Below, piece by piece: positions 20,929 through 33,137 of a stretch of 64,000 nt of DNA (position 1 is the first letter of the stretch; the number at the start of each line of letters is the position of its first letter). Under the pieces are notes generated by a model. It saw only the letters and a list, made by a program, of their open reading frames with translations. It made no database searches and was not told the DNA's origin. Both the position numbers and the translations under genes were made by a program. This stretch comes from Flavobacteriales bacterium (GTDB lineage Bacteria > Bacteroidota > Bacteroidia > Flavobacteriales > Schleiferiaceae), in the NCBI GenBank assembly GCA_012269745.1, contig JAAXJR010000030.1, forward strand, positions 85,961 through 149,960. The letters are read 5' to 3'.

Positions 20929-21747
20929 TTAAGGAATTAGCACTTTCAAATTGTGGTGCCAATTTTCACCTTCTACACGCAATACGTGAATACCTGTGCT
21001 CCAACCCAAGGTGCTAAGGTGGTGAGATGCCTTAGGATCAGCATTGTACAGCTCCTTGCCTTGCATATCGAAGATGCGTAAACCAATGGGTGAATCTGTA
21101 CTTACATCCATAGTATGACCGTCCTGAGCAACACAAAGATTGCGCAACACGCGGTCCATCACATCAAGAAGTTCAAAAGCAACGGTAAAGGAAGTGTCCT
21201 TCTCAGGATTGAAACTCCAATCCTTAATGGTGAAGCTTTTCGCACTATCAGCCACATCCATACGCAGCCATCCAAAACATGCGCTGTCGTCTTTCAAGAT
21301 GCGCAATCCGAGGTAACCGTCTGTTACCGGACCTGCCCAATTGGAATTCGGATAAGCAACACCGTCCACCAAGAACGCCATGTACCCTACTTTCAATGAG
21401 TTGTTGATGCCAGAGAATCCAGCGCTCGGGTTCAATACAGTTCCAGGAACCGCGTTAGCTACATAGTTGAAGCTATTCGCTGCAGCACCCAAGGCAAGGT
21501 TTCCTTCAATACTGTCGCCAGGGCGCAGAAGGATGGAAGTTACGTTGCCTAATTGGCCACCGTTAAGAACATGTTCAATGGTAAAGTCAACGATGGTATC
21601 GCCGTCTAAATCCAATTCAAAAATGCCATCCACAACAGTAGTGTCGTCGATATCTGTATACAGCAATTGTGCTTGTGCAGAATTCGCTCCAAGGACTGCA
21701 GCAGCAGCGCCTAAGTACGAAGAGATTTTCTTGGATTTGTCGTTCAT
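20929..21747 (-). CDS. Secreted protein with putative type IX secretion C-terminal sorting domain
   Basis: A 272-residue secreted protein with a signal peptide (about residues 1-27, ending NSAQAQ). The body is rich in Asp, Asn and Gly and has the pattern 'DIDDTTVVDGIFELDLDGD', similar to secreted proteins with PEP-like or calcium-binding surfaces. The last 75 residues, with IGLRIFDMQGKELY and a final 'STGIHVLRVEG' plus a short Lys/Val tail, match a type A sorting domain recognised by the T9SS. The protein is thus probably exported to the cell surface. Function of the mature part is unknown. Confidence 0.68.
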   Translation of the reverse strand: MNDKSKKISSYLGAAAAVLGANSAQAQLLYTDIDDTTVVDGIFELDLDGDTIVDFTIEHVLNGGQLGNVTSILLRPGDSIEGNLALGAAANSFNYVANAVPGTVLNPSAGFSGINNSLKVGYMAFLVDGVAYPNSNWAGPVTDGYLGLRILKDDSACFGWLRMDVADSAKSFTIKDWSFNPEKDTSFTVAFELLDVMDRVLRNLCVAQDGHTMDVSTDSPIGLRIFDMQGKELYNADPKASHHLSTLGWSTGIHVLRVEGENWHHNLKVLIP

Positions 21748-21762
21748 GTCGGCAAATATAGC

Positions 21763-24219
21763 TTAAAAGCGCCTGAGCTGTGGGGAAATAACAGTCTTTA
21801 ACAATGAAATATCAACCTTCTTATTCACGACGGAACTAAGGGCCTTTAGCGACCGATCAAGTGCGCTAGAAATCTCTCCTGATTCCACCGCCTGGAGCAA
21901 GGACTCAAAAGACAGATCAATGATTTCAGTATACGGGTCCAATTCCAACACCAACGCCGTCTTCTCAAACTCTTCGGACCAACTTACCTTTTCCCGCCAG
22001 CCCAGTGGAACCTGCTCGTTCCCTTTCATTCTGCGCTGACTTTGCAGGACAGCATCGAGATCTCGGTGCATATGGACCACCACCTTTCGCCCTTTGGGCA
22101 GGGGCGCCTGGCGCAAGAGTGGCTCCACAATCTTGATGGCTTTGCCGCGCTGGGCATCCAGCCACCCTGCATCTAATTCCCACTGACGCACCTTTTCGTG
22201 CTCAAAATACCCCTTGGCATTGTGCTCGTCTTTACTTCGTACGCCATCCGAAACGGCAGCAACTCCACAAGCCTCCAGTAATTGCATCGCTAAAGAAGTA
22301 CCGCTACGCGGCGGGCCGGTGACAATAAATAAAGGCTCCTTCTCTTCAACCTCTAGCAGCTTCATCTGCAGCGCCTTCGCCGTCCCGGCTTCCTCCATCA
22401 TGCCGAGTTTGGCAAAACAGAGTGCTGCGAGACCGTGTAAAGCAGGTTGGTAAAACAGTAAGTTCAGACTTTCTAAAGCAGCATCCAGGGCATCGTCCCA
22501 CCTTTGCAATAGCAAGAAAGTGCGTGCACGAAGGTTCCAAATATCTACCCCCTGATGCGCTTCATTATCTAATAGCGTGGTCAATTCTTCTAAATTCCCA
22601 GCCTTCAGGAGCAATTGGCCCCACAAGACCACGACACTCTCGTGCGAAGCACTGCTCAGTCCGTGTGGAAGTTCAACTGTACCTGTAGCCTTCAAGGTGA
22701 GCAAGGCCTGATAAAATGACCAGATCAAATTTTCCGGCGCATCTGCCTTGCTTACGATTCTTTCCAAGGCATTATAGTTACCGGCATCGGCCAGCACAGA
22801 GGCAGCTAATTGCAAGTATCGCTCTGGCACTTCGGAGCGATCTGTGAGTGGTTCTATAACCTGCCATGCCTCGGACAGACGTTTTTCAGCGCGCAGACTT
22901 CGCGCCAAGTAATAGCGGTTCTCTTGCAGCCTTCCTTCTTCACTGACCAATTGGTTTTCGTCCAAATAACCCAAATCCACCAAGGATTGTAGCAATTGCT
23001 CGTCAGCAGAGAACGTTTCTTCATTCACTCGCGGATCCGCTGATTTCAAAGCTTGTACTTGCTTTCCGCTGAACGGCACAGGCACCCTACCCTCCATGGT
23101 CTTCGGTGCTTTTAATCCGTGCGCAGCCAAAACAATCGGCGCGACATCTAATAGATTCAAGCCTTTCCAATTTAATTCATCGGTAAAGAGCGGACCTTTG
23201 GCCGCGAACACCCCGTGGAAGTTGTGCTCCAATGCTGGCGCTCCAGCATGCTCCGGCAAGGCAATAATTCGGTCCTTACCGGAAACAAAGCCGTGATCGC
23301 TAATAAGCAATGCGGTGCCATTGGGGTCCAATTGGCCCATGAGCGCGCTTAAACACAAATCGTGCAAACGGTAAGCGCTTTCCACAATGTGCTGATACCT
23401 GGTAAAGTCTTCGTCACTCACCCCATTGAGCTGAGGCGGTGCGTACTTCATTCCAAGGTGCTTGTAATGATCAAGGGCATCAAAATATATACTGGCATGA
23501 CCTCCAGCACCGTAATCCAGCGCGAACGTGGCCAACAATTGAACGTTCAAAGCATGCGTGGTAATCTTCAGCACACTGCGCACTACATCATCCTTGCTGT
23601 CCAATTCCATGTTGGGAAAGAACTGAGCAATAGCGGCCGCAGGAATTTCTTCGGGCTGCAACAATAGCGAAGACAAGAGCTCATGGTGCTCTTTTGGGGC
23701 CATCCCGTCCGGTAGCCAGCGTAAATCCTCGCTCACGGCTAGGTTTGAAACGCGTATTGCGCCCAATGAACTTTCTTTAGCAGGATGCGACGGCCACCAC
23801 GCTACGCTTGAAGCGGGAATTCCTTGCTTTTCGAGGTAGTCAAAGTAGGAAGGCATTTGGATGGACGAGCCTCTAACGGCGCGAATAGCACCCTCGTACA
23901 TTTCTGTAAATCCATGAATTCCGTGCGCCGATGGCCACGAAGAGGTCGCGATCGACGTCCAAAGCATCGGAGAGATGGGCGGATCAAGAGTGGCTAAATT
24001 CGCATGTACTCCAGCACTCAACAGTTCTGCTAGCGCAGGCATCTTTCCTTGTTGCAAGAGCGGATACATGCTATTCCAATCGGCTGCATCCCAACCAATG
24101 AGCATGCTATCATATAGTGGTCGCTCAGTAAGATCAGGCAGTTCAATCCCCTTGAGCGCTGCCACATTTCTGTACCCTCCTGCTAAAAAACCTAATGTAT
24201 GTTTTGGATTCACTGCCAC
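21763..24219 (-). CDS. Fusion: alkaline-phosphatase-superfamily phosphodiesterase, TPR linker, sulfotransferase
   Basis: An 818-residue three-part protein with no signal peptide. Residues 35-385 look like a type I phosphodiesterase/nucleotide pyrophosphatase: Asp44 in IGWDAADWNSM, a nucleophile candidate Ser83 in PPISPMLWTS, Asp247/Asp250-His251 in YFDALDHYKH, Asp308-His309 in LISDHGF and His332 in LEHNFHG give the two-metal set. Residues 400-620 are helical, with TPR-like periodicity. Residues 630-818 carry a sulfotransferase-like cofactor loop GPPRSGTSL (635-643) and an HMHRDLDAVLQS segment like the 3'-phosphate-binding region. Each module is recognisable; the combined substrate is not. It is divergent from the permease at 24269. 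It could modify or trim a nucleotide-activated or sulfated glycan. Confidence 0.78.
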   Translation of the reverse strand: MAVNPKHTLGFLAGGYRNVAALKGIELPDLTERPLYDSMLIGWDAADWNSMYPLLQQGKMPALAELLSAGVHANLATLDPPISPMLWTSIATSSWPSAHGIHGFTEMYEGAIRAVRGSSIQMPSYFDYLEKQGIPASSVAWWPSHPAKESSLGAIRVSNLAVSEDLRWLPDGMAPKEHHELLSSLLLQPEEIPAAAIAQFFPNMELDSKDDVVRSVLKITTHALNVQLLATFALDYGAGGHASIYFDALDHYKHLGMKYAPPQLNGVSDEDFTRYQHIVESAYRLHDLCLSALMGQLDPNGTALLISDHGFVSGKDRIIALPEHAGAPALEHNFHGVFAAKGPLFTDELNWKGLNLLDVAPIVLAAHGLKAPKTMEGRVPVPFSGKQVQALKSADPRVNEETFSADEQLLQSLVDLGYLDENQLVSEEGRLQENRYYLARSLRAEKRLSEAWQVIEPLTDRSEVPERYLQLAASVLADAGNYNALERIVSKADAPENLIWSFYQALLTLKATGTVELPHGLSSASHESVVVLWGQLLLKAGNLEELTTLLDNEAHQGVDIWNLRARTFLLLQRWDDALDAALESLNLLFYQPALHGLAALCFAKLGMMEEAGTAKALQMKLLEVEEKEPLFIVTGPPRSGTSLAMQLLEACGVAAVSDGVRSKDEHNAKGYFEHEKVRQWELDAGWLDAQRGKAIKIVEPLLRQAPLPKGRKVVVHMHRDLDAVLQSQRRMKGNEQVPLGWREKVSWSEEFEKTALVLELDPYTEIIDLSFESLLQAVESGEISSALDRSLKALSSVVNKKVDISLLKTVISPQLRRF

Positions 24220-28879: not shown

Positions 28880-29760
28880 TGCGCCGAGTTCTACTGCTTT
28901 CCTTACTCCTTAACTGGCTGAGCGCTAATGCACAGATGGATTGGTGGAATCAGATCCACAATTGGGACGGAGCGACGCCGTGGACGCAATACATGAATTA
29001 TTCGCATGCCTACCTCGGCCCAAATGCTATTCCTATCCCTACGCTTCAACGCAGCAATATGGGCAGCTATTTTAAGAGCAGCTCGCAGATGAGCCTCATT
29101 GAAGACGATAGTTTCTTGACACTGCATAACGAATTGCATTGGGACAGAGGCCACACGCAGATTCATATTACGCATCAGAGCATAGAATATTACCGCATGT
29201 CGGAAGAAGTACGAGACTTGCGGATTTCTAGAGACGAGGACGGTGAAGGCGTACTCGCCGGGGATGTCTTGATCGATATCAGTACCCGACTTTGGACAAA
29301 ACATGAGCAAAGTCTATGGTTCACTTTTCACACCAAGACGGCCGCTGGACCACTTCCTCAAGCAAGATTTACCGATGCACCCGGTTATGCCTTTTTCTTT
29401 TCGCACCAGAAGAGCTTCGATTCGTGGGGAAATTGGGAACCCTATCTCACCACTGATGCTGGATTTCAAGTCTACCAGACCCATTGGGTGGATTACCCAC
29501 AGAACGACGGATTCCTTGGAAACATTAAGCTGCAGCTACATAAAGACAAGACTTACCTGAGTGCTCAATTACGCACCTTTTCCGGCTATTTTCTAGATGG
29601 AGATTGGCCGAGGCTGTTGGAGCTGCAGTGGAGTCAGACCTTTACTTTTGGACCGGCACAGCTTGGACGCGCACATGTCGGTTGGACACGAGGACTGAAC
29701 GATTACCCCTTCTCTTTTTTGACCGTTGGAATGACGTATTGGTTAGACGTTCACAAGTAA
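28879..29760 (+). CDS. Secreted barrel-like protein, unknown function
   Basis: A 293-residue protein whose ATG shares a base with the dnaX stop (TAATG), so translation is probably coupled. It has a signal peptide (MRRVLLLSLLLNWLSANAQ), then many aromatic residues in alternating strands and an aromatic-rich end (FLTVGMTYWLDVHK), consistent with an outer-membrane barrel. I do not recognise the family beyond a conserved Bacteroidota hypothetical. Its last 18 bases overlap the convergent glycosyltransferase gene. Confidence 0.58.
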   Translation: MRRVLLLSLLLNWLSANAQMDWWNQIHNWDGATPWTQYMNYSHAYLGPNAIPIPTLQRSNMGSYFKSSSQMSLIEDDSFLTLHNELHWDRGHTQIHITHQSIEYYRMSEEVRDLRISRDEDGEGVLAGDVLIDISTRLWTKHEQSLWFTFHTKTAAGPLPQARFTDAPGYAFFFSHQKSFDSWGNWEPYLTTDAGFQVYQTHWVDYPQNDGFLGNIKLQLHKDKTYLSAQLRTFSGYFLDGDWPRLLELQWSQTFTFGPAQLGRAHVGWTRGLNDYPFSFLTVGMTYWLDVHK

Positions 29761-30594
29761 TCGCAACCAAAGACCTAAAGGTACTCGCGTATTTTTCGCA
29801 TTGTTCAAGGCTTCCTCTTTCCATTTTTTCTGAGCCTCAGTATTTCCGCGCTTCTTATACGTTCGGGCCAATTCATAGGCCTTCCGAACCTCATAAAGCT
29901 TAAATTCCTTCTCACTGATGTGACCTAGATCTTTAGCCTTGGCCACTGCACGCATCACCTTATTTACGTGCCCTTCTGCATCTGCAGTCATGCCGAAATC
30001 CAATCGGTACTTCAGCGTCGCCTCAGGCAGCATCTTTGGAAAATCACCGCGACTAAGCACTCTTAAATGCGCGCCAACATCTTCCTGGAGGTTCCTATCA
30101 TTCTCCCAAGCGTAGTCAAAACCACTGCGCATGATGATTGTTGAAGGAACAATCGGGTTGTAGCTCAAAAAAGACCGCAGAGAACTTACCTGGCTGCAGG
30201 CTCTCTTGCGCGTACTATTTTCATTCTCGGGTGTCCACTCCAATATTGGTGTGTAAAACCACTGGGTCTTTGGATACTTCAGAAGCCCCTTCATCCCTTG
30301 CTCGAGCTTACCTGGCAACCACACATCGTCCGCATCTAAAAATGCATAGGCATCACCCGTCGCGGCAGCCATCCCGGCATTTCTGGCTTTTCCCAAGCCT
30401 GAATTTGCCTGACTTACGATTCTTAAGGTGAGCTTGGCTTCAAATTTTGCTGCGACTCTTCGAGTATTGTCCGTACTTCCGTCGTCTACCAAAATAACCT
30501 CAAAAGGTCGAACGCTTTGACGTACTACACTCTCAAGACATTCCGCAAGCGTGGAGCCAGCATTGTATGCAGGTATGATGACAGATATTCTCAT
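29743..30594 (-). CDS. GT2 family glycosyltransferase
   Basis: A 283-residue inverting glycosyltransferase with the GT-A core: SVIIPAYNAGS opening, ILVDDGSTDNT (36-45), NSGLGKARNAGMA and the metal-binding DADD (87-90). The C-terminal half is Lys/Arg-rich. Donor and acceptor are unknown. Its ATG overlaps the stop of the upstream sulfotransferase/glycosyltransferase fusion (TAATG), so both are translated as a unit and probably build the same glycan. Confidence 0.9.
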   Translation of the reverse strand: MRISVIIPAYNAGSTLAECLESVVRQSVRPFEVILVDDGSTDNTRRVAAKFEAKLTLRIVSQANSGLGKARNAGMAAATGDAYAFLDADDVWLPGKLEQGMKGLLKYPKTQWFYTPILEWTPENENSTRKRACSQVSSLRSFLSYNPIVPSTIIMRSGFDYAWENDRNLQEDVGAHLRVLSRGDFPKMLPEATLKYRLDFGMTADAEGHVNKVMRAVAKAKDLGHISEKEFKLYEVRKAYELARTYKKRGNTEAQKKWKEEALNNAKNTRVPLGLWLRLLVNV

Positions 30595-32366
30595 TAGTGG
30601 GCAAAAAATGATTTCGGGAACAGACGAGCTGCTAGTTTTTTGGCTGGCTTTTTCAAGCCGAGGTAAATAAAGAATTGACCCAATAATTTAATGGCGCCAC
30701 TTCTGAGCAAATACCGGCCTAACCCTTTTTTATACCCCTTAAAGGCCTTGTATAACCTGCGGTTGTTGCGCCAGACCTCAGCGCTGCGGTCCATGGAGAA
30801 CACATTGGCTGCCCACCACATCGCCACTTGGCCACGGGCGGCATTGATGGTTTCAAGCGGTGCAAAGCTTTCCTTCTCGAAGATGGTGTACATCTCTAAC
30901 AGTTCGTCAAAAGCGCTGTAGGAGCTGATGGCGCGGCTGCGTTGTGTTTGTGAATGAAAGCGGAATTTGTTTCGCGGCCGCGCATGAAAGACGAGATCGC
31001 CGTATTGTAAAAGCTTGGCGTAAAAGAGCCAATCTCCATTAAGGCGCCAATGCGTCGCTGGAGCGCCAACTTTATCGAAGGCTTCTTTGCGCATTAAAAT
31101 ACCGCTGGCGTTCGGGATGGTGTTGGAAAAGACCATGTGTTTGGCCACCTCGGTTTTCCCTTCGTTGGTGAAGTCTTTGGCCCATTTGGCAGTATCGCCG
31201 AAGATGAAGGCATAGTCGTCTTTAAAGTCCCGCAGAAATTGGCCGTTCTCATCCACGAGATGGCTGTGACTGTAGGCGATTACAGCATTTTCATTGGCCT
31301 CCATACTCTGTACGTGAAGCGCGAGCATATCTGTATCGCAATAATCGTCGCTTTCGGCAATCCACAGGTATTTGCCCTTGGCCCAAGCGGCTCCTTTGGC
31401 CCATTGCGCGAATGGACTGCCAGAGTTTTCTTCGTTGAACAACGTGGTCATCCTGGAGTCCTTTGCAGCCCATTTTTCAAGCACCGTGCGGCTATTGTCC
31501 GGACTACAATCGTCCATGAGCAGGACTTCGATATTCGTATATGACTGGCCAGCAATGCTTTCCAAGCGTTGATCCAAGAAAGCAGCATGGTTGTAATTAG
31601 GTACGATTACGCTTACCAATGGACCGTCCGTAGGCAATGCTGCTAAAGGTTTTGAGGAGGTCGTTGTGGCCGATTTTGGACTTCGCCGTGCGAAGCCTTC
31701 CATCTTCCCTGGACGTACCTTACAGAATTGGTACAGAGAGAACCAACTTTTACGTTGAGTATCGATTTCTGAGCTGACCAAATCTTTATACTGCACCATG
31801 CGTACCTCTACTCCACTGTTCTTAATGTTCGTGGTTGCCGCTTCGTTATAAGCACGCACTAGCTCGCGAGCAGTTTCTTCAGTGAGGTCACTAAAGGCTT
31901 CCCCTTCCACGCGCTGGCGGCGGAGCAAGCTTTGAACGATCTCCTCTTCATCGCGGAGTACCCAGATAACCTTCGCCTTCGGAAAGCGGGCAAGCCACCA
32001 AGGCAGGGTAAAACACAAACGAGGGTCCTTTACAGCCCACGGCCCGCTGTGTGCAAAGGCTAGAGAAATACGGCGGCCTGAAGGATGTTTCAGGTGCGTG
32101 CCATAAATATCAAGGTCAGTAAGTTCAGACTGAAAATTTGATGCCGCATCTAAAACCGATTCAAGTTCAGGCGGCGACCACCAGTTTCCACCGGCAGTTT
32201 CTAGGATACGGTCGTTAATATCTATGCCGTAGAGCGCCTCAGAGTTGTGATCGAGAATGGTTCCTACATGAACGCCAGCCGCTCCCAAGGCGCGAGTCAC
32301 CATAGTGGTCCCACTGCGGTGCATGCCTAGTATGAAGACGGGTTGCTTGATTTTGGGTAGAAACAT
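30594..32366 (-). CDS. Fusion: sulfotransferase-like domain with GT2 glycosyltransferase
   Basis: A 590-residue two-domain protein. The N-terminal part (1-230) has the cofactor loop GMHRSGTT at 14-21, WAVKDPRL and WVLRDEEEIVQSLLRR, the pattern of the sulfotransferase_3-like group that may use PAPS. The C-terminal part, from about residue 248, is a GT2 enzyme with SVIVPNYNHAAF, LMDDCSPDNS (DD at 285-286) and WIAESDDY (metal site near 338-341). I chose the start at 32366 rather than 16 codons upstream because the earlier one overlaps the divergent gene. Together with the GT2 downstream it is likely a glycan decoration unit. Confidence 0.85.
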   Translation of the reverse strand: MFLPKIKQPVFILGMHRSGTTMVTRALGAAGVHVGTILDHNSEALYGIDINDRILETAGGNWWSPPELESVLDAASNFQSELTDLDIYGTHLKHPSGRRISLAFAHSGPWAVKDPRLCFTLPWWLARFPKAKVIWVLRDEEEIVQSLLRRQRVEGEAFSDLTEETARELVRAYNEAATTNIKNSGVEVRMVQYKDLVSSEIDTQRKSWFSLYQFCKVRPGKMEGFARRSPKSATTTSSKPLAALPTDGPLVSVIVPNYNHAAFLDQRLESIAGQSYTNIEVLLMDDCSPDNSRTVLEKWAAKDSRMTTLFNEENSGSPFAQWAKGAAWAKGKYLWIAESDDYCDTDMLALHVQSMEANENAVIAYSHSHLVDENGQFLRDFKDDYAFIFGDTAKWAKDFTNEGKTEVAKHMVFSNTIPNASGILMRKEAFDKVGAPATHWRLNGDWLFYAKLLQYGDLVFHARPRNKFRFHSQTQRSRAISSYSAFDELLEMYTIFEKESFAPLETINAARGQVAMWWAANVFSMDRSAEVWRNNRRLYKAFKGYKKGLGRYLLRSGAIKLLGQFFIYLGLKKPAKKLAARLFPKSFFAH

Positions 32367-32381
32367 GTATTTTCGGCTCCG

Positions 32382-33137
32382 ATGCGTAACCCAAAGAAAC
32401 TCGTTTTTATCCACATCCCAAAAACTGCCGGGACATCCTTGCGATTATTGTTGGAAAGCAACTACAAGGAAACCGAGCGCAGGGCCATTTACAGCCATCA
32501 GGATTTAGACGAGCAGCTCGCATCCGCCCTTAACGACCCCAAGGTCAAATGCATCTACGGTCATTTTCCCTTACGTCCCGTCATTGCCGAATCAAATGCC
32601 ACAGTAGTTACACTTTTCCGAGAGCCTATCGCGCGCTCGATGAGTCACTACAACCACTACAGCAAACGCATGAATGAAAAGCATGCACAGCTCATGGAAG
32701 GGATTGACAGTCCTGAGGACTTTACCCGATTAGTTCAGAGCAACAATCGCCAGACGGCATTTATGAGCGGCTACTTGAACCAGAAGGAGTTTTTAGAGGA
32801 TGAAGGCGTATTAGAAAAAGCATTGGCCAATTTTGACCGATTGGACGCCGTTGGCTTCACCGAACACTATGCAGCGTCTATCGCCTACTTTGGCGAGCAG
32901 TTTGGCTGGAAGAACACCCTAGTGGAGCATCACAACAGCGGCGGTAAGAAAAAGGAAGTTGCCGCAAAGGCAGTTTGGGAAAGCATGAACGAATACGACC
33001 TGCCGCTCTACAAGAAGGCTGTGGAGCGTTTTGCTGATGTTTTGAAAGACTACGAAGGGCGAGCGCCTCGTGTTCCGAAGCCGCCACTACTTAAGAGAGT
33101 AAAGGGTTACTTGCGTGCTCTGAGTTCGAAATTCTGA
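32382..33137 (+). CDS. Sulfotransferase family 2-like protein
   Basis: A 251-residue protein with the PAPS-binding loop of the heparan-sulfate-type sulfotransferases: [13 protein letters not shown] at 10-21, YGHFPLRP at 59-66 and the 3'-phosphate site [13 protein letters not shown] (78-90). Members transfer sulfate to hydroxyls of sugars or other groups. It is divergent from the sulfotransferase/GT2 fusion with 15 bases between the starts and overlaps the convergent lptB by 31 bases at the 3' end. A specific acceptor is not predictable. Confidence 0.85.

Follow-up and report, generated by a model that had tools for sequence, protein, structure and literature searches.

Background

In Xanthomonas, the bacterial tyrosine sulfotransferase RaxST is encoded next to its substrate, the secreted peptide RaxX (PMC6637879). 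The RaxX precursor, unlike the partner protein described below, is a short chain of 60 residues that leaves the cell through a type I system. PorX, a response regulator of the T9SS, contains a cytoplasmic domain of the alkaline-phosphatase (AP) superfamily with zinc phosphodiesterase activity (PMC11320123). The active site of NPP3 has seven ligands, D168, T206, D326, H330, D373, H374 and H483 (PMC6052110).

The window, i.e. the whole stretch of 64,000 nucleotides that was analysed, encodes a single polypeptide in which an AP domain, a TPR-like array and a sulfotransferase (ST) domain are joined, directly beside the gene of a secreted protein. The likeness to RaxST-RaxX lies in this gene arrangement, a sulfotransferase gene adjoining the gene of a secreted polypeptide. 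To our knowledge RaxST has neither an AP nor a TPR part. PorX is a precedent for an AP-superfamily domain that is located in the cytoplasm and linked to the T9SS, as is predicted for the fusion. Unlike the fusion, it contains a receiver domain and takes part in regulating the T9SS, and no TPR array, ST domain or such partner gene has been described for it. The earlier note on this DNA had considered the fusion a candidate for an undescribed enzyme, and in the literature searched we found no paper on an AP-TPR-ST fusion and nothing relevant on a sulfotransferase in connection with PEP-CTERM; the words sulfotransferase, phosphatase and phosphodiesterase are all absent from the text of the 2006 PEP-CTERM paper. 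The fusion is real, conserved and apparently undescribed: its parts are known, its combination and context apparently new.

Reading frame and domain architecture

The fusion gene (21763..24219, minus strand) starts with GTG and encodes 818 aa in a frame that is open throughout. The AP domain covers residues 37-385 (23065..24111, minus strand), as assigned by PF01663, a fold match to PafA and a residue audit. A linker and a TPR-like helical array follow (residues 386-624, the array itself at about 400-621; 22348..23064, minus strand), recognised as helix pairs of the TPR type in the AlphaFold2 model. The ST domain forms the C-terminus (residues 625-818; 21766..22347, minus strand); folded alone it reached a pLDDT of 91.3. 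In the Pfam scan, Phosphodiest (PF01663) matched residues 40-326 with an E-value of 7.7e-17; a TPR-like match on residues 522-581, just below the cut-off, and a Sulfotransfer_3 match on residues 629-666 (E 9.7e-6) were sub-threshold. Twenty-two relatives presented PF01663 in 22/22, Sulfotransfer_3 in 20/22 and TPR families in at least 16/22 cases. The model of the whole fusion, built from the family alignment, had a mean pLDDT of 86.7 and a pTM of 0.81 and resolved AP domain, helical array and ST domain. Domain scan, relatives and model thus bear out three segments in one chain, as the earlier note had read them, and the structure prediction agrees with its assignment of residues 630-818 to a sulfotransferase fold, TPST2 and TPST1 being the best matches. 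An assembly artefact or a fusion by frameshift was ruled out, since dozens of assemblies made independently of each other contain the fusion likewise as one ORF. A 92 %-identical relative (L007/L026) has the fusion ORF as two overlapping ORFs of 613 and 313 aa, probably an assembly frameshift.

The fusion has no signal peptide, and several relatives start only few residues before the first strand. Its layout, without a secretion or sorting signal and in this unlike the partner, is predicted to be cytoplasmic, in agreement with the location that had been proposed for the hydrolase.

Fold and active site of the AP domain

A phmmer search with the single fusion sequence matched no PDB chain, so that profiles were needed; profile searches against PDB sequences agreed with the fold matches of both the AP and the ST domain. 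Fold comparison of the model placed the AP part close to PafA (Z 24.4, 316 residues, rmsd 3.6) and to ENPP3/ENPP1 (Z approximately 24). The residue audit of 58 distinct AP domains revealed D44, S83, D250, H254, D308, H309 and H332 as conserved metal ligands, each present in 56-58 of the 58 members, so that the domain has a two-metal ligand set with a Ser/Thr nucleophile. The metal set read previously from the sequence stood for D44, S83, D250, D308, H309 and H332; two of its positions are variable, with D247 kept in 41/58 and H251 in 48/58 domains, and the conserved H254 had not been listed. The ligand pattern D, S/T, D-x3-H, DH, H is the one of NPP3, and S83 aligns with the NPP threonine. The DH motif and H332 align with iPGM, and the third histidine closely follows the DH as in iPGM. 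Unlike in NPP and other PF01663 relatives, the nucleophile is a serine inside a PPxSPMLW motif. The active-site asparagine of NPP (N227 in NPP3, N111 in Xac NPP), located 21 residues past the nucleophile, is replaced by Phe104 in 56/58 members, thus the AP domain is not an NPP proper. It differs further from its relatives, type I phosphodiesterase/NPP, PafA and phosphonoacetate hydrolase, in the predicted cytoplasmic location and in the attached TPR array and, usually, ST domain. A planctomycete ST-less member (L047:5650-7965) has a degenerate AP site, with S83A and changes at D247, D250, H251 and H254; its partner gene is still adjacent.

Sulfotransferase domain

The loop GPPRSGTSL (residues 635-643; 22291..22317, minus strand) is a 5'-phosphosulfate loop with an invariant core: G635, P637, R638, S639, G640, T641 and S642 were present in 46/46 ST domains. 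Equally invariant (46/46) is R719-x7-S727 (22039..22065, minus strand), which we take to be the 3'-phosphate-binding pair of sulfotransferases. The PAPS-type cofactor loop that had been proposed at residues 635-643 is confirmed by this combination of GxPRSGTS and Arg719-x7-Ser727. D658, R661, N667, G670, E673, K696 and Q728 were also invariant among the 46 domains. In fold comparison, TPST2 (Z 10.2 over 163 residues) and TPST1 (Z 10.1) were the best matches, and the two were among the best profile matches; they share with the ST domain the GxPRSGT loop and the Arg-x7-Ser pair. Unlike TPST1/2, the ST domain is bacterial, predicted to be cytoplasmic and 194 aa long instead of about 280 aa, with an identity of only about 20 %. 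Teg12, SULT and StaL matched the model with Z 9-10, about one unit or less below TPST; the TPST match does not settle the type of acceptor because cytosolic SULT and Teg/StaL score nearly as high.

The ST domain is a detachable module. Members lacking it are clustered in the tree of 58 AP domains, with 4 changes versus 9.4 with shuffled labels, and this group has retained the AP-TPR core and, in most cases, the partner gene. At one locus (L203) the cluster has a separate ST gene of 199 aa, upstream of the gene for an AP-TPR protein with a degenerate ST domain of its own; at another (L206) a separate ST gene of 260 aa follows 1.1 kb downstream of an AP-TPR gene without ST.

The genes for the supply of PAPS are unevenly distributed. 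Neither APS kinase (PF01583) nor CysD (TIGR02039) was found in the own genome (G000) or in most genomes of the same genus, with nearly the same pattern for both. APS kinase was present in 12/12 sampled genomes of other genera of the family, and both APS kinase and CysD occur in a relative of 94 % identity (G017). The ST motifs are intact also in genomes in which the two genes were not found, for which one has to assume either a gap in the MAG or PAPS from elsewhere. A PAP phosphatase of the CysQ type scored over the cut-off in the own genome (5.5e-79) and occurs in nearly all fusion-bearing relatives. An APS-kinase-like gene, recognised by reading its sequence, lies directly upstream of one fusion gene (L036:5256-5792, plus strand). 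The window contains a second sulfotransferase-like fusion (30594-32414, minus strand) of Sulfotransfer_3 (residues 25-222, E 5.6e-15) and a family 2 glycosyltransferase (residues 268-395), followed by a free glycosyltransferase at 29743-30594.

Distribution of the fusion

Relatives of the fusion were present in 33 of 60 related genomes; almost every sampled genome of the genus has one, as do most of the family's other genera. Across the order, the AP domain was found in 53/395 genomes, and all but one of these belong to the own family. In a phylum sample of 296 genomes, the full-length profile gave TPR matches everywhere, therefore only full-length or AP-domain matches were counted; the full fusion was otherwise rare. 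A scan of genome contigs detected the fusion also in Verrucomicrobiota, Planctomycetota, Flavobacteriaceae, Chitinophaga-like genomes and a MAG labelled Deltaproteobacteria.

The neighbouring secreted protein

The partner gene (20929..21747, minus strand) starts 15 bp past the stop of the fusion gene on the same strand and encodes a secreted protein of 272 aa. Its N-terminal leader, KSKKISSYLGAAAAVLGANSAQA (21667..21747, minus strand), is weakly hydrophobic; the leader was judged by eye and hydrophobicity, and it is presumably cleaved. The C-terminus carries a T9SS type A sorting tail (20938..21096, minus strand): TIGR04183 matched residues 218-270 with an E-value of 1.9e-4 and 21.3 bits, just below the cut-off of 23. 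Proteins of the partner family share a three-part build, in which a core containing Y-x-G-x-R-F and HYGW-like motifs lies between the N-terminal leader and the sorting tail. According to NCBIfam, the tails of 22 members were T9SS type A (TIGR04183) in 9/22 and PEP-CTERM in 6/22; the sorting signal is T9SS in Bacteroidota and PEP-CTERM in most other members. No target site was identified in the partner, since no single Tyr, Ser or Thr is invariant across the homologues, and the residues conserved only alongside ST-bearing enzymes revealed no clear modification site. In genome G351, a 972-aa protein (L207:4191-7106) matches the partner with its N-terminus and has the same leader type; it is located about 205 kb from an unpaired fusion gene on the same contig.

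The strongest clue to the function is the pairing of fusion and partner, which the earlier note did not contain. In an all-against-all comparison of flanking genes, the partner family was the one strongly recurrent neighbour besides the fusion itself. Among 50 distinct AP-TPR(-ST) genes flanked on either side by 700 bp or more, the partner profile found a homologue within 1 kb of 44, and six were without an adjacent partner. Part of this set had trained the partner profile, therefore loci found only via the AP profile were examined: a partner was present within 1 kb in 22/25 and at 1.26 kb in one more. The chance expectation for such adjacency is well under 1 %, since most genomes hold one to few partner genes. 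The two genes are co-directional at some loci and divergent at others, thus the pairing exceeds an inherited operon order. Among the 60 relatives, 29 of the 33 fusion-bearing genomes had a partner match; in the remaining four (G002, G003, G004 and G007) the contig ends at or close to the fusion match. G361 contains six paralogous AP-partner pairs with a correlated divergence (r = 0.90, permutation p = 0.007). Co-retention and co-duplication mark a functional pair. Another locus (L198:8354-9353, minus strand) has a second partner gene beside a short ORF whose match to the AP profile is confined to the first 24 profile positions; this ORF possibly belongs to a second enzyme copy that is broken or frameshifted.

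The partner does not strictly need the enzyme, as partners occur in the fusion-free genomes G025 and G034. In G034, a member of the same family, the order MacB-type permease, partner, aconitase is as in the window, the fusion alone being missing (L142:6978-11469). The partners in these two genomes have an ordinary hydrophobic signal peptide; the partner leaders in the fusion-bearing genomes of the family that were examined are weak, rich in A/S/G and often contain KxLxxYxA. This difference, read from the sequences, is only suggestive. Over all loci, the maximum leader hydrophobicity did not differ significantly between linked and unlinked partners (p 0.12, with some windows running upstream of the true start).

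Possible function of the pair

We propose, at about an even chance of being right, that the fusion acts in the cytoplasm as an enzyme dedicated to maturing the adjacent secreted protein. The TPR array would contact and bind the precursor of the partner, either ahead of Sec export or in its course. With PAPS as presumed donor, the ST domain would move sulfate onto a hydroxyl or, considering that TPST is the nearest fold, a tyrosine side chain of the partner, which would be the substrate. The two-metal AP domain may hydrolyse or transfer, via Ser83, a phosphoester on the same client or on its modifier as its presumed target. The client would then be exported and sorted by the T9SS in Bacteroidota or by the PEP-CTERM system in most other members. 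In favour of this reading are the conserved pairing, the joint divergence of the paralogous pairs, the separate ST genes within the cluster at two loci, the APS-kinase-like gene beside one fusion gene, the folds and conserved motifs of the AP and ST domains, and the secretion and sorting signals that the partner alone carries. Against it speak the absence of an invariant Tyr, Ser or Thr in the partner, the failure to find APS kinase and CysD in the own genome and most of the genus, the partners in fusion-free genomes and the six of 50 genes with no partner next to them.

The pair may also cooperate without the partner being a substrate, the enzyme making or editing a sulfated, phosphodiester-linked small molecule or glycan that is later carried or bound by the surface protein. 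As is generally known, AP and sulfotransferase folds act mostly on small molecules, lipids and glycans; the partner has no conserved modification site, and the window encodes the Sulfotransfer_3-glycosyltransferase fusion at a distance of about 6 kb. However, no genes for glycans or lipids recur in the neighbourhood, where the partner is the sole strongly recurrent neighbour besides the family itself, the TPR array suggests a protein client and the paralogous pairs diverge together. We regard a small-molecule or glycan product as rather unlikely. Hydrolysis of PAP, by which the AP domain would spare the fused sulfotransferase from inhibition by its by-product, had been suggested in the earlier note from the presence of both domains in one chain, and enzymes of the AP superfamily are generally known to cleave phosphoesters, but none of the results points to PAP in particular. 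For the other suggestion of that note, the editing of a nucleotide-linked acceptor, the results speak neither way. The trimming of PAP was not supported and is now highly improbable, because a separate CysQ-type phosphatase is encoded in the own genome and in nearly all fusion-bearing relatives, and because ST-less members, which leave no PAP to trim, keep the AP-TPR core and mostly the partner.

The persistence of that core in clustered ST-less members is consistent with yet another role, in which AP-TPR serves mainly as a targeting or chaperone factor for the unusual leader of the partner, and sulfation is a side activity that some lineages have lost. The weak leaders in fusion-bearing genomes of the family compared to the ordinary signal peptides in G025 and G034, and the absence of the fusion alone from an otherwise retained gene order in G034, point in the same direction. 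However, linked and unlinked leaders do not differ significantly in hydrophobicity, therefore recognition of the leader was kept only as a rival, and the metal ligands of the AP domain, superfluous for a mere chaperone, are kept in nearly all members; we give such a role little probability. The maturation of the partner by the fusion remains our preferred reading.

Conclusions

In Bacteroidota, Verrucomicrobiota and Planctomycetota alike, a fixed domain combination is paired with a single sorted surface protein, and this arrangement is apparently undescribed. On a broader view, which is speculative and in our judgement rather improbable, a cross-phylum system may exist that provides every surface protein with a cytoplasmic enzyme of its own with two activities: after capture by the TPR array, the ST domain would sulfate the protein, possibly on tyrosine, and the AP domain would add, remove or swap a phosphoester ahead of sorting by T9SS or PEP-CTERM. 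This would be a protein sulfation unlike that by RaxST. For the group of proteins whose sole match is to the general 'type I phosphodiesterase' domain, the pairing provides a likely biological context. If the partner is the substrate, the locus would be a concrete, testable case of protein modification ahead of T9SS or PEP-CTERM export.
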